Origin: Bacteroidota bacterium
Lineage (GTDB): Bacteria > Bacteroidota > Ignavibacteria > UBA10030
NCBI GenBank assembly: GCA_026416125.1
Contig: JAOAFT010000001.1
Span: forward strand, 124,001 to 188,000
DNA: 64,000 nucleotides
Direction of reading: 5' to 3'
Shown here: piece after piece, positions 46,108 to 51,759 of the stretch
Layout of the letters: each line of letters begins with the position of its first letter
How positions within the stretch are numbered: the first letter of the stretch is position 1
Position numbers and translations under genes: made by a program
Notes under the pieces: model-generated
What the model saw: only the letters and a program-made list of their open reading frames with translations
What the model was told of the DNA's origin: nothing
Database searches by the model: none

Positions 46108-48846
46108 TTATTTCATTAGTATCATTTTTATTGACTTCTTAAGCATAGTACCTTTTTCCCCAACACATAACCGTGCAATGTAGATTCCACTTGAGAGGTG
46201 TGAACCATTGAAAATTATTGAATGAACACCCGGGTGCATGTATTCATTGACGAGTGTTACTATCTCACGACCTAATTGATCAAATACTTTTAACGATACG
46301 AACGATATTGTTGAAATTCTAAACTGTATAGTCGTACTTGGGTTAAAAGGATTGGGGAAATTTCTGTATAATTCAAATGTTGTTTCGGGTATCGTACGAC
46401 TTACATGAGAATACTCATCGCTAAGAGTAGTTAACTCAAGGCGGATTTTGTAGTTCCCACTTGTTGAACGAACCCATCTCGAACCATCCCATACCAATGA
46501 ACGCTCAGCTTCTTGAGTACCATCAGTATTGATTCGTAACGTATCGCCTGCTCCACCTACAGAAAGAACAACAGCATACTCTATACGAGGTTCAACTTCG
46601 ACACCAGCCATCCAGAATGGTACAAAATTAAGCGTTGCAGGATTGAGTAGAGAAAAAGGATACTCAATCGCTCTACCGATTTTTACAGTTGGAGAACAAT
46701 TCTCAGCAGTAAATATCTCGCAACGAAGAAATCCACTACCACTAATTGATCGTTCTTTTATACCAGGTAGTGAAAGATACAAACCTGTTAGAGTTCCTCG
46801 AATAGGTGGAACAAATCGTATGGCTATTTTTTTATTCGCTGAAATAACTTCGGTCTGTCCAATCAACATTGTATCGTATTTAATAACAATACGCGAAACA
46901 TGTGCCTGAAGACCGTAGACAAGTTTTGCAACAGCATTAAGGAGATCAATTTTACCATACCCCCATGTTGCATTTGGAATTGTTGAAGTGAATTCATCAT
47001 TTCGTGCCGATTTTGCAATTAGTAATTTCAATACCGATTCGCTTAAACTAGTATTAATTCCTAATAATGTAGCAACTGCTCCAACAAGATGCGGTGTTGC
47101 TTGGCTTGTTCCCATGTCGATTTTGTAGAGCCCACCTGGGTAAAGTTGATTTCCTACAGATAGTGGATTTACAGTTGATGACAATGCCGCTGTAATACCC
47201 TGTCCAGGAGCTGTAATTTCAGGCTTTAGCCGTCGATCACGTGTTGGACCTATACCACTGAATATCGATATGTTACCTGTTCTTTCGGTGGGGTAATCTG
47301 TCCAGTTGTATACATTCCCGTCGTTCGATGGCCATGACCACTTTGTCACGTAACTACCAACAGTAATAGCCTTTTTCGAAGTGCCAGGACTTGTAATAGT
47401 TTTTTGATTATCACCGTTTACAAGCTCAACAGAAGGGATACCCCTGCCACCAGAACGAATTGCAACCCATGCATCATATTCTATAGGTGAAGTTTGGGAC
47501 GTAGTAATTGTAAGTACCCACTGCCCCGGACATGGCGGAACAACTGAACTAGCACGAACATATAACTCAATGCATCGATGATTATTATCTGTGCTTTTAT
47601 AATTTGCCAAATAGATAATACCATCACTTGTGTCATTTGCACTGCCATGTTGGTCTTTACTCCGACTGTAGATAACTCCTCTTGGTGATTTTATGGTAGC
47701 CACTAAAGAACTCGCCCCTGAAACTGAAACATCACCTTGTAGCCAAACCATAAAATCGAATATCTGTTTCATCGAATCACTGAACGAGTAATACTGGGGT
47801 TGTACCATTGTAAAAGACAGAGGCGACGATTTCGAAAGATACCCAGAAGTATGAATTTGATATTTTGCATCATTTCCAGCAGCAACACAAACAATTCTCC
47901 CAGCAGTGACAAAACTATCAATCGCCACCTCGTAAGGTCTTGTTCCATCATGAGGTCCATACTGGCTACCAATACTCCAATTAACGACAATCGGTTTTCG
48001 CAATTGTTCAGATTTGTATTTTGCGTACGTTAATCCATCGATCATGAATGCTTCAGTAAATATTCCATCTCCACCTTTCACTACAATAATGTCAGCTTCA
48101 GGAGCGACTCCTTTAAATTTTCCATTATAGGTCCTTCCATTTCCCACTGCGATGCTTGCCACGTGCGTTCCATGTCCATTATAATCGCGTGTGCGAACAA
48201 ATCCAACTCGTGTACCATCAAGTTCATTCTCAATATCACGTTGAGTGTACTCTACACCATAATTAAATCCTGCAGGTGAATATTCGCCACTTTGTGGTGT
48301 GAGTGTTTGATCCCATATATAGAGAATGCGAGTTTTAGTCGTATCTTCTTTTCGAAAATCGAGGTGTTTCCAATCAATGCCAGTATCATATATTAATACA
48401 ATAACATCCTTACCAGCATATGGCGTATTGTTAAGTATACCTTCACTCGTTTGGAGAGCGCCAATCTCAGGGATACTTACATCAGTTTGGAGTGTATTCA
48501 ACGACGAATGTTGGATGTACAGAACACAATCAAGTTTCTCAATATTTACAATATCTTCACTCGATAATCGAGCAGTAGCATACTGTCCTACAATAGAATT
48601 CAGATGTATTCCATATCTTTTTAACGCTTCTGGATCATTTGTTGTTATTATCACAGGATATAGTTCAATATTACTTTCGTTTATTTTTGCAAGTTGATAA
48701 TTTTTCCTTTGTTGTGCTAAAAACTCATGAAGCAGTGGATGAATTTTAGAGTGCTGTGTGTAGCAGAGGGGAAAAATAAGAAAATGTATTAAAAGCAGAA
48801 TCCAAAAGCCGCGAATTGAAAAAAGCAATTCACGTTTAGAAATCAT
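46108..48846 (-). CDS. Secreted subtilisin-like (S8) protease with T9SS C-terminal sorting domain
   Basis: VIVLIYDTGIDWKHLDF (Asp), YNGHGTHVASIAVG (His), DMGTSQATPHLVGAVA (Ser); C-terminal LYRNFPNPFNPSTTIQFRIS..LSSGIYIARL. Confidence 0.93.
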   Translation of the reverse strand: MISKRELLFSIRGFWILLLIHFLIFPLCYTQHSKIHPLLHEFLAQQRKNYQLAKINESNIELYPVIITTNDPEALKRYGIHLNSIVGQYATARLSSEDIVNIEKLDCVLYIQHSSLNTLQTDVSIPEIGALQTSEGILNNTPYAGKDVIVLIYDTGIDWKHLDFRKEDTTKTRILYIWDQTLTPQSGEYSPAGFNYGVEYTQRDIENELDGTRVGFVRTRDYNGHGTHVASIAVGNGRTYNGKFKGVAPEADIIVVKGGDGIFTEAFMIDGLTYAKYKSEQLRKPIVVNWSIGSQYGPHDGTRPYEVAIDSFVTAGRIVCVAAGNDAKYQIHTSGYLSKSSPLSFTMVQPQYYSFSDSMKQIFDFMVWLQGDVSVSGASSLVATIKSPRGVIYSRSKDQHGSANDTSDGIIYLANYKSTDNNHRCIELYVRASSVVPPCPGQWVLTITTSQTSPIEYDAWVAIRSGGRGIPSVELVNGDNQKTITSPGTSKKAITVGSYVTKWSWPSNDGNVYNWTDYPTERTGNISIFSGIGPTRDRRLKPEITAPGQGITAALSSTVNPLSVGNQLYPGGLYKIDMGTSQATPHLVGAVATLLGINTSLSESVLKLLIAKSARNDEFTSTIPNATWGYGKIDLLNAVAKLVYGLQAHVSRIVIKYDTMLIGQTEVISANKKIAIRFVPPIRGTLTGLYLSLPGIKERSISGSGFLRCEIFTAENCSPTVKIGRAIEYPFSLLNPATLNFVPFWMAGVEVEPRIEYAVVLSVGGAGDTLRINTDGTQEAERSLVWDGSRWVRSTSGNYKIRLELTTLSDEYSHVSRTIPETTFELYRNFPNPFNPSTTIQFRISTISFVSLKVFDQLGREIVTLVNEYMHPGVHSIIFNGSHLSSGIYIARLCVGEKGTMLKKSIKMILMK

Positions 48847-49180
48847 TGTGTCGTGTACCTCCACGTATTGAAGTCACACATGGCTCGTTTAGAAGCATGC
48901 GAATTTGCTCAATTGAAGCCCATACTACTGAATACTGACCGTATGAACTTGTTATTTCTAATCCCATTAATGAAAATATTTCTTTACATGAACTTTGTAC
49001 AATAATGTGGTATTGTTTAGTCTGATTGATATAAAATCTACTACTTAATTCAGTATCATCACTATTTTCAAGAAGTCTCTGGATAGCAAAGTCTCCTTTT
49101 TGTTTTGTTAAGGACTGAAAATGTTGAGTACAAGAGTATGGAACAAGAAGTAAGAAAAATATTACATGAAACATCCTCAT
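48836..49180 (-). CDS. Small secreted protein resembling a free-standing subtilase propeptide/inhibitor
   Basis: Signal peptide; YHIIVQSSCKEIFSLMGLEITSSYGQYSVVWASIEQIRMLLNEPCVTSIRGG parallels YPVIITTNDPEALKRYGIHLNSIVGQYATARLSSEDIVNIEKLDCVLYIQHS of the next gene. Confidence 0.6.
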   Translation of the reverse strand: MRMFHVIFFLLLVPYSCTQHFQSLTKQKGDFAIQRLLENSDDTELSSRFYINQTKQYHIIVQSSCKEIFSLMGLEITSSYGQYSVVWASIEQIRMLLNEPCVTSIRGGTRHNDF

Positions 49181-49183
49181 TTT

Positions 49184-51442
49184 TTACCGTATTAAGACTA
49201 ATTTTTTTGTTTGCATTCCATGTTTCGTATATATCTTGTAAAAATATGTACCAGAAGATATTGTTGCTGGTGGTTGCCAATAAATTCTGTTGTCAGGTAG
49301 GCTTTCCCCTTCATAGATGACATAAACTTCTCGACCAAGAACATCGTACAACACAAGTTTTACATATCCAGCTTCTGGAAGGCTATAATGAAACGTTGTT
49401 CCCGGGTTAAATGGATTTGGATAATTTTGATACAACTGAACAATATTGGGTAACAACTCTGTAGGTTCTGTAGGACTATCCATACCATTTGTGTCATTGC
49501 TTATATATGCTCGTATTAAATAGGTATAAACTGAATCTCCGCCATCATTTGAGGTTAAGTAATACCAGTTGCCATTTGTATACGTGAGACTCGTGTATCG
49601 TGGTGGCTGAGGGCTTTTCGTCACCATGACCCGCGGTGCAGTGGTCGACTCGCCACTTACTACAAATGCAACAGCAAAAGGTGCTGATGCATCTATATTG
49701 TAAGAACGAAGATCAACCGTAGCCCAATTTGACCACGGTACAGGATATGGAATCCCAGGTGTTTGAGTCGTAGTTGCAATGATCGGTACAGCAAGTTTTT
49801 TCCCTAGTGGTGTAGGTCGAATTGCCCCTGAGTAACTCCATATTCCTCCTTGCATTGATCCTGCACGCCGAAGTGCAATACGTATAGAGTCCAGCTTCAT
49901 ACCAGAAACCCCATCAAACCATACACACACTGTATCGTTCACTGAAAGTGGTAAATATCCTATGGGTTCGCTTTCATCGTACTTTAATTCCATTCTCGTA
50001 ATATTTGCCGTGCCTGTAGAACTATAAGAATATGTTACGTTGTACGTATTAAGGTTCGTTATTGCAAAGATTACCGTTGAATAGGAAGTTCCAAAACCGT
50101 TGACGGTATAGTTTTGACCAATTGGAATATCCGTCACTGCTTGAGTCTGTCCTAAAGCTATCATTCGTATACTTAAAGAAGCTTTTGTTTTCATGTGTAT
50201 ACTTAAACTTGTACCTGATGTATAAGCAATGTAACATGTACCGTACGGTTTTAATGTATCCACAATCGCAGGAACTGATGGTACTATATGCGTTCTATGG
50301 TTTGATGGATAACTCAAAATTGGAAGCTCAAACCCATATTGAGGATTGAATGACTTATTGTTGAGCTTTGTAGCTATAGCAAAGTTTTTTAAAACATCTT
50401 TAAAAGTATATTGAACCCCGACCTTTTGCAGCGCTTCATTATAACCATTTTCTCCTACCTGGGTACTCTGAACTAACCGTTTTATATACGCTACACCAAA
50501 TTGTTCAACTAAATACCACGTAAATAGTGCTGCTCGCGAATAATCCGCTAACACATCTTCTGTTTCTTGCCAACTTAAAAAATTTACATTAGTGTTAGAA
50601 TAGTACAACGAAGGATTTCTTAGTCCATATCCACAGAGTTTTTCAGCTATTTCTGAGCATCCTTCATTAACAAATGTATCTTCGTCGTCATCATAATTCC
50701 AGTGAATCATATGTTGAAGTTCATGAGCAGTTGTTCCAGCAACTTCTGTAATACCTTTGCTAGTCATAAGATTAGCTGGATTACAATCAATGTAATATAT
50801 TTCAGCATAATTTGAGTGACGCTTATTCCCTAAAGCTTTTTGTACATCTTGTTCCGTGTATTGGTTAAGGCTATAGTAGTATCCTGCTACATAGTTTCCT
50901 GATCCACTATATCCATCCTTAATGTCAAGGATGAGTATGATTATCCTGGGATCACCATCGACATCTGGAGGAACTCCAAAAAATGTCGTATCTAACTGAT
51001 AAATCCCTTTTTGTGAATGCGATGGTGTACGTTGTTCAAAAGCAATAAGAACAGAATCAACTACTTGCTGGGTAACCCGTGTTCCCCACTGAACATCCTC
51101 GACAAATATATAGCAATTTGTTCCAACTGCTCTGCACGTTGATGGCACAAGGTATTCATAGTAATCGACTGTACTAATATCTGTAGCATACCACGAACGC
51201 TGCGACCCAACTGTGAAATTGTATGCTTCCTTTTTAGTTAAAGACCTCGTATGCTTCGTAATTCCGTGTGATAATAAAATATCCTTTTCTTTTTGCCACT
51301 GTTTAGTAATACGATGAGAACCGGGGATAGGATACGAATCATTTCCTGCTACCTGCTGGTTCCTCTGTAAACGCTGACCTAACAGAAATTCACAGATAAT
51401 AAAAAGACATACAATGCTTTTAACATATTTATGTGATATCAT
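49184..51442 (-). CDS. Secreted zinc metalloprotease-like protein with T9SS C-terminal sorting domain
   Basis: TTAHELQHMIHWNYDDDEDTFVNEGCSE (HEXXH); C-terminal LYQNYPNPFNPGTTFHYSLPEAGYVKLVLYDVLGREV..ISSGTYFYKIYTKHG; start placed at the signal-peptide Met. Confidence 0.85.
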   Translation of the reverse strand: MISHKYVKSIVCLFIICEFLLGQRLQRNQQVAGNDSYPIPGSHRITKQWQKEKDILLSHGITKHTRSLTKKEAYNFTVGSQRSWYATDISTVDYYEYLVPSTCRAVGTNCYIFVEDVQWGTRVTQQVVDSVLIAFEQRTPSHSQKGIYQLDTTFFGVPPDVDGDPRIIILILDIKDGYSGSGNYVAGYYYSLNQYTEQDVQKALGNKRHSNYAEIYYIDCNPANLMTSKGITEVAGTTAHELQHMIHWNYDDDEDTFVNEGCSEIAEKLCGYGLRNPSLYYSNTNVNFLSWQETEDVLADYSRAALFTWYLVEQFGVAYIKRLVQSTQVGENGYNEALQKVGVQYTFKDVLKNFAIATKLNNKSFNPQYGFELPILSYPSNHRTHIVPSVPAIVDTLKPYGTCYIAYTSGTSLSIHMKTKASLSIRMIALGQTQAVTDIPIGQNYTVNGFGTSYSTVIFAITNLNTYNVTYSYSSTGTANITRMELKYDESEPIGYLPLSVNDTVCVWFDGVSGMKLDSIRIALRRAGSMQGGIWSYSGAIRPTPLGKKLAVPIIATTTQTPGIPYPVPWSNWATVDLRSYNIDASAPFAVAFVVSGESTTAPRVMVTKSPQPPRYTSLTYTNGNWYYLTSNDGGDSVYTYLIRAYISNDTNGMDSPTEPTELLPNIVQLYQNYPNPFNPGTTFHYSLPEAGYVKLVLYDVLGREVYVIYEGESLPDNRIYWQPPATISSGTYFYKIYTKHGMQTKKLVLIR

Positions 51443-51453
51443 ACTTGTTTTGC

Positions 51454-51759
51454 CTAATTGTTTAATATGATAAACGATCGAACAACAATTGCTTTTCGAA
51501 AATGTTTCCGAGTTATGGTCCCCTGCAATTTTACTGTATATCCCTGGCACTGCTTTAATCGTTGCATTGTTAATGAATCAGATACTATTTCAAAACTTGA
51601 CCCAAGTGTATCACGAATTAGTATGTATGTAAAAGGTTCATTCCCACTTATAGAAATAAAACCAATAAATGTAGTATCCCTTGGGTTGTTATTTACATGT
51701 TCTCGTTGTAGACAACTTATACAACAAGCGACACAAAGCATATATATTGTAGCTCTCAT
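51454..51759 (-). CDS. Small lipoprotein of unknown function
   Basis: MRATIYMLCVACCISC lipoprotein-like signal; same strand and tightly spaced with the next gene. Confidence 0.5.
   Translation of the reverse strand: MRATIYMLCVACCISCLQREHVNNNPRDTTFIGFISISGNEPFTYILIRDTLGSSFEIVSDSLTMQRLKQCQGYTVKLQGTITRKHFRKAIVVRSFIILNN

Follow-up and report, generated by a model that had tools for sequence, protein, structure and literature searches.

How bacteria with a type IX secretion system (T9SS) spare their own envelope from the potent proteases that they export is, to our knowledge, partly understood, the case that we can name being the potempins of one oral pathogen. Here we describe a candidate answer from a Bacteroidota bacterium of the class Ignavibacteria, encoded in a stretch of 64,000 nucleotides (assembly GCA_026416125.1, contig JAOAFT010000001.1, positions 124,001 to 188,000; referred to as "the window"). 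The gene in question encodes a small propeptide-like protein of 114 amino acids and overlaps the start of the gene for a Csp-type subtilase that carries a T9SS sorting domain.

Several described systems resemble this arrangement. In Tannerella forsythia, small putative lipoproteins precede all KLIKK proteases (T9SS), as described in PMC4404884, and PMC7296668 states that these lipoproteins, by then named potempins, inhibit the co-expressed protease. Stand-alone propeptide-like inhibitors include POIA1, the yeast proteinase B inhibitor and Arabidopsis SPI-1 (MEROPS I9), as well as TgMIC5 and Plasmodium SUB1-ProM (PMC6993865). Spi is a propeptide analogue encoded beside streptopain SpeB, which it inhibits (cited in PMC2873492). 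In CspB, the active site holds the last three residues of the propeptide, through which the prodomain also blocks the enzyme when added in trans (PMC3567191). In a literature that largely lacked subscription papers, we came across no account of a bacterial subtilase propeptide with a lipoprotein paralogue, and we do not claim priority.

Homology and predicted fold

Sequence comparisons identify the 114-amino-acid protein as a stand-alone homologue of the propeptide of the adjacent subtilase, a resemblance that the original prediction had drawn from an alignment by eye. BLASTP of the small protein against this subtilase gave 23% identity over 115 amino acids including the propeptide (E 7e-5). 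The Smith-Waterman score of the mature small protein with the S8 propeptide was 55, compared with a mean of 26.5 for shuffled sequences (standard deviation = 4.8), and 2 of 2,000 shuffles scored at least 55. Profile-profile comparison of the small proteins with subtilase propeptides reached a probability of 99.4 (E 2.4e-21). When its own genome was searched with the single sequence, the sole other match was the adjacent S8 prodomain (E 0.26), and a profile of the stand-alone homologues retrieved the prodomain of the window subtilase at E 8.4e-15. The small protein has KLDP where the subtilase's own propeptide has KLHP. In one further type of small protein (f5), the profile comparison was weak, with a probability of 10 to their own subtilase propeptides and 47 to the main group of small proteins, so that it is their position, lipobox and alignment pattern that support homology.

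The Pfam model CspB_prodomain matched weakly, at E 0.04 in one homologue and E 0.06 in the subtilase. Sequence searches of the PDB gave weak matches, of which the one meaningful match was 9rk9, a subtilisin-type chain of 97 amino acids (E 0.35); phmmer against PDB chains, run with no potempin sequence for direct comparison, returned no relevant match.

The structure prediction that had been proposed as a check, made by AlphaFold2 from the window protein and 11 homologues, yielded a predicted propeptide-type ferredoxin-like fold. The mean predicted local distance difference test score (pLDDT) was 84.9, and core residues 31-107 mostly exceeded 90. The elements follow each other as strand 55-63, helix 67-71, strands 75-80 and 83-88, helix 90-97 and strand 102-107, the same order as in the model of the subtilase's own propeptide. 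Among the leading Foldseek matches are the CspB prodomain, the PAM protease prodomain, the ASP-ORF2 chaperone, the ProteinT protease, the BPN' prosegment and the Tk-subtilisin propeptide, and probabilities reach 0.99. On BPN' and Tk, whose propeptides are short, the template modeling (TM) score is 0.67-0.72. The ORF2 chain (3wqb_B) had a probability of 0.82 and a TM score of just 0.34-0.38. The model of the subtilase itself matched the Csp family best (CspC, CspA and CspB; E down to 1e-27).

The C-terminal tail was compared by alignment only. Beyond the conserved Val/Ile of strand beta-4, it spans 13-17 residues in 32 of 35 homologues, and 13 in the window protein, the outliers being L042, L074 and L060 (L and G numbers are our labels for loci and genomes). 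The BPN' prosegment likewise ends 13 residues past its own beta-4 residue (VAYVEEDHVAHAY, chain 1spb_P), so that the stand-alone protein ends where a processed propeptide ends. In the subtilase, the corresponding point lies just ahead of the segment DVSVPETGA. By this alignment, a tail of propeptide length that could fill the S sites is present.

Lipoprotein signal

The hydrophobic N-terminus ends in a cysteine in all 35 homologues examined, and 31 of them have a usual residue at position -1. In the alignment, the counterpart of the homologues' lipobox cysteine is Cys17 of the window protein. The original prediction described a secreted protein; the signal sequence is indeed present, but given this cysteine in all relatives examined, the window protein is probably a lipoprotein rather than freely secreted. 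Because the family consists of lipoproteins, the small protein should act tethered to a membrane in the periplasm. The subtilases carry ordinary signal peptides, unlike the lipoprotein type of the small proteins.

Conservation of the gene pair

We searched 100 related genomes for the orthologous subtilase and obtained 29 evaluable loci. A homologous small gene was located immediately upstream of the subtilase at 26 of them; the exceptions were L033 (G036), L050 (G097) and the diverged paralogue L053 (G003). The upstream neighbour, recognised by eye, varies by lineage and includes the metallopeptidase, UvrA, SecA and others, indicating that the conserved unit is the pair of small gene and subtilase. 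Conservation in relatives, on which the original prediction had been made to depend, extends beyond these loci to KSB1, Chlorobiota and other classes. Where relatives of the locus in GTDB genomes carry a name, most are metagenome assemblies of Ignavibacteria or Ignavibacteriae, and further named carriers are two KSB1 assemblies (L065 and L101), an assembly with a wrong label (L074) and Candidatus Thermochlorobacter (L070). Of 396 genomes sampled from the phylum, 28 had a match to the profile, a number that includes matches to subtilase propeptides only, and adjacent pairs were also read in further families. Two genomes have the small gene directly downstream of a T9SS subtilase gene (L172:3989-4339 and L173:4433-4783).

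The ratio of nonsynonymous to synonymous substitution rates (dN/dS) was 0.08-0.34 over eleven close pairs, indicating purifying selection. Distances among the small proteins mirror those among the catalytic domains of their partners (19 pairs, r = 0.84, reached in 0 of 2,000 permutations).

Some individual loci depart from the common layout. At L045:1097-1390 (G026), one of the 26, the small gene is interrupted by a stop codon, owing either to decay of the copy or to an error of the assembly. At L064:176-6000 (G024, contig 77), one propeptide-like lipoprotein gene is followed by two tandem subtilase genes. Two weak matches were set aside: one on contig 19 of G003 was not at any subtilase locus, and one in G348 is probably a broken subtilase N-terminus.

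Evolutionary origin of the stand-alone proteins

When propeptides and stand-alone proteins were placed in one tree, 20 of the latter formed a single group (support 96/93), which did not include all of them. The f5 stand-alone group adjoins the f5 subtilases, and the L074 protein falls with the propeptides of its own subtilase and related ones, apart from the other stand-alone proteins, so that an independent duplication is possible there. The window copy forms a long branch. A single origin of all stand-alone proteins including L074 was rejected by the approximately unbiased test (p-AU 0.033), while a single origin of the main and f5 groups was not (p = 0.33). Since the tree and the topology tests involve few alignment columns and long branches, an origin on more than one occasion, with up to three tree positions, is suggested only. 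The L074 protein is a stand-alone lipoprotein (L074:250-633) on a contig labelled Williamsia, an actinomycete, that is apparently misbinned; its subtilase groups with that of Niastella.

A proposed tethered inhibitor of the subtilase

The explanation that we favour, and consider reasonably probable as a whole, is that the small gene arose by duplication of the subtilase's own propeptide and that its product is a dedicated, membrane-tethered cognate inhibitor of the adjacent exported Csp-type T9SS subtilase, possibly also serving as a folding helper. It draws on the propeptide homology, the computed fold, the linkage and its conservation, the purifying selection, the near-universal signal cysteine and the position of the tail end. 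The mirrored divergence, the published block of CspB by its prodomain in trans and the inhibitory lipoproteins that precede T9SS proteases in Tannerella also speak for it. From the computed features we infer a sequence of events that covers lipidation of the window copy, topology, binding, inhibition and release upon export. Both proteins would reach the periplasm through Sec, where the small protein would be lipidated and remain at a membrane. Its propeptide-type domain would dock onto the folded subtilase, and its free C-terminal tail would occupy the active-site cleft like the tail of a cleaved propeptide. The subtilase, with its own propeptide cut off, would in this way be kept inactive within the envelope. 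Export by the T9SS would leave the tethered inhibitor behind, and the enzyme would be active outside.

Several observations weigh against this explanation. The lipobox of the window copy is degenerate, with Pro at -3, which makes its lipidation less sure. A few orthologous subtilases, such as those of G036 and G097, have no adjoining small gene, and the mirrored divergence is also expected from plain vertical descent. Foldseek E-values were no better than 0.06, a weakness expected of a small domain of about 60 residues, and some unrelated folds such as homing endonucleases appeared at similar E-values but with low probability. The position of the helix-capping Glu69 of BPN' is Arg in the window protein and acidic in just 21 of 35 homologues; with the capping acid lost, docking may differ from that of BPN'. 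This acid is also missing from the window subtilase's own propeptide, which has Gln. Finally, a Pfam scan found no Inhibitor_I9 match, and no usable domain, in the window protein or any of 17 homologues. The original prediction of a cognate inhibitor or chaperone is supported, in that the predicted propeptide-type fold and the conservation of the pair both came out in its favour, with the refinement that the nearest propeptide relatives are of Csp type.

The main alternative, which we regard as unlikely, though deserving of attention, is an external folding chaperone: the lipoprotein would act as a second propeptide in trans during periplasmic folding, and inhibition would be just transient, as in ORF2. 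Propeptide-type domains generally use the same surface for folding and for inhibition. The ORF2 complex (3wqb_B) ranked third among the fold matches of the small protein. The ORF2 gene adjoins that of its protease, and ORF2 is required for active ASP and inhibits it with a half-maximal inhibitory concentration (IC50) of 84 nM (PMC5638518). However, ASP has no propeptide, whereas the subtilases read here keep their own, which leaves no obvious need for another folding helper, and for this reason we favour an inhibitor. In addition, a permanent membrane anchor suits a protein that stays in the envelope better than one with a single, passing role in folding, and a chaperone sits poorly with the orthologous subtilases that have no such gene. 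Both roles could nevertheless be true.

It is less plausible still that the small protein is an escort or timing regulator, a tethered domain that keeps the zymogen at the membrane or the T9SS machinery, or takes the place of the zymogen's own propeptide there, instead of inhibiting the enzyme. A lipoprotein with a propeptide-type docking domain would suit this role, as would the divergence from the subtilase's own propeptide seen in the KLDP and KLHP motifs and in the frequent loss of the capping acid. No motif or neighbour indicates a secretion component, however, and a tail of propeptide length would be purposeless. A functionless, decaying duplicate of the subtilase N-terminus, to which the long branch of the window copy and the interrupted copy in G026 might point, is rejected by the dN/dS of 0.08-0.34 in many lineages and is highly improbable given the open reading frame, the distinct lipoprotein-type signal sequence and a linkage conserved across different neighbourhoods and in another phylum.

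Organization of the locus and a second protease-lipoprotein pair

The coordinates of the features are summarized in Table 1. On the minus strand, transcription would proceed from a second small predicted lipoprotein with a GNEPFT motif through the M30-like metallopeptidase and the 114-amino-acid protein to the subtilase. Because the successive genes are spaced by 11 and 3 nucleotides and then overlap by 11, the four probably form one operon. The overlap, put at about 10 nucleotides in the original prediction, follows from the ATG at 48846, which yields a good signal peptide (MISKRELLFSIRGFWILLLIHFLIF); an alternative GTG start at 48864 would extend it to 29 nucleotides. The 11-nucleotide overlap is consistent with coupled translation. 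The subtilase has the invariant residues Asp154, His225 and Ser581, and its T9SS C-terminal sorting domain spans residues 830-906. As had been noticed earlier, such a domain is present on both flanking proteases, which match Por_Secre_tail (E 4e-6 and 2e-5), and there is none on the small protein. The genome also encodes the T9SS translocon protein SprA.

Table 1. Features of the protease locus, in positions of the window
Feature	Position	Strand	Remarks
Small propeptide-like protein, 114 amino acids	48836-49180	minus	Separate open reading frame (ORF) with its own signal sequence
Csp-type subtilase (S8), 912 amino acids	46108-48846	minus	Signal peptide, propeptide, invariant Asp154/His225/Ser581, T9SS C-terminal domain
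Subtilase's own propeptide, residues about 34-119	48490-48747	minus	Homologous to the small protein
Overlap of small ORF and subtilase, 11 nucleotides	48836-48846	minus	Small ORF stop at 48836, subtilase start codon at 48846
M30-like metallopeptidase (HELQH) with T9SS sorting domain	49184-51442	minus	Stops 3 nucleotides before the ATG of the small gene
Second small predicted lipoprotein, 101 amino acids, GNEPFT motif	51454-51759	minus	Directly 5' of the metallopeptidase

The predicted lipoprotein of 101 amino acids, 11 nucleotides before the metallopeptidase gene, is a candidate partner or inhibitor of that enzyme. In about ten other, related genomes (L187-L190, L192-L196 and L198), homologues with a GNEPFT-like motif immediately precede M30-like HExxH proteases. 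A second protease-lipoprotein pair in the operon fits the logic of tethered inhibitors. In G036 (L199:2350-6000), which has the GNEPFT lipoprotein, the metallopeptidase and subtilase genes adjoin each other as they do in the window, but no propeptide-like gene lies between them.

Implications

The recurrence of the pairing across many bacteria suggests that the subtilase is kept off in the envelope until it is exported. The locus thereby offers a widespread, sequence-recognisable candidate answer in environmental bacteria that is testable with two small expressible proteins, and if true, it would be a clear example of an inhibitor that evolved from its target's own propeptide. It also provides a search rule, namely to look beside T9SS proteases for lipoproteins that are propeptide paralogues and for small lipoproteins generally.

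Taking both pairs together, we tentatively propose a broader reading, which we hold to be a serious possibility falling short of probable: T9SS bacteria turned a subtilase propeptide into a membrane-tethered immunity protein, and exported proteases would as a general rule be encoded with a tethered cognate inhibitor, the potempins being one case. As the L074 protein stands beside its own subtilase's propeptide and a common origin was rejected (p = 0.03), this conversion may have occurred more than once.

Comparison with known systems

The potempins and the window protein are small predicted lipoproteins whose genes immediately precede that of a T9SS protease, and both are presumed to be cognate inhibitors; the Tannerella proteases include the subtilisin-like mirolase. 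This gene order was found in the window, where the lipobox is degenerate, and in most relatives. For the six Tannerella ORFs, no significant mutual sequence similarity was reported, and the passages cited here mention no propeptide origin, whereas the paralogy of the window-type lipoprotein with the protease's own propeptide is clear.

Spi is likewise a stand-alone propeptide analogue next to a protease gene in a bacterium, but its target is a cysteine protease of family C10, with another fold, in another organism and with no T9SS. For prodomain and subtilase alike, the fold is matched most closely by the Clostridium Csp proteases, but their prodomain lies within the protease gene and there is no separate lipoprotein.

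As in the I9 type, the small protein is encoded by its own gene rather than cut from the enzyme precursor, and this is so in all relatives examined; the SUB1-ProM gene also adjoins subtilase genes (PMC6993865). The inhibitors treated in PMC6993865 are eukaryotic, and the three well-characterised I9 members are described there as having no significant sequence similarity to propeptides, whereas the protein described here is bacterial, predicted to be lipoprotein-anchored and recognisably homologous to the adjacent propeptide.

ORF2 of Aeromonas sobria (PMC5638518; PDB 3wqb) is, like the small gene, a bacterial gene beside a subtilase gene, and its product has a propeptide-type fold with the C-terminal tail in the active site, a placement known for ORF2 and proposed for the small protein. 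The ASP protease has no propeptide and the ORF2 gene lies downstream of it; here, by contrast, the subtilase retains a full propeptide, and the small gene usually lies upstream and encodes a predicted lipoprotein.
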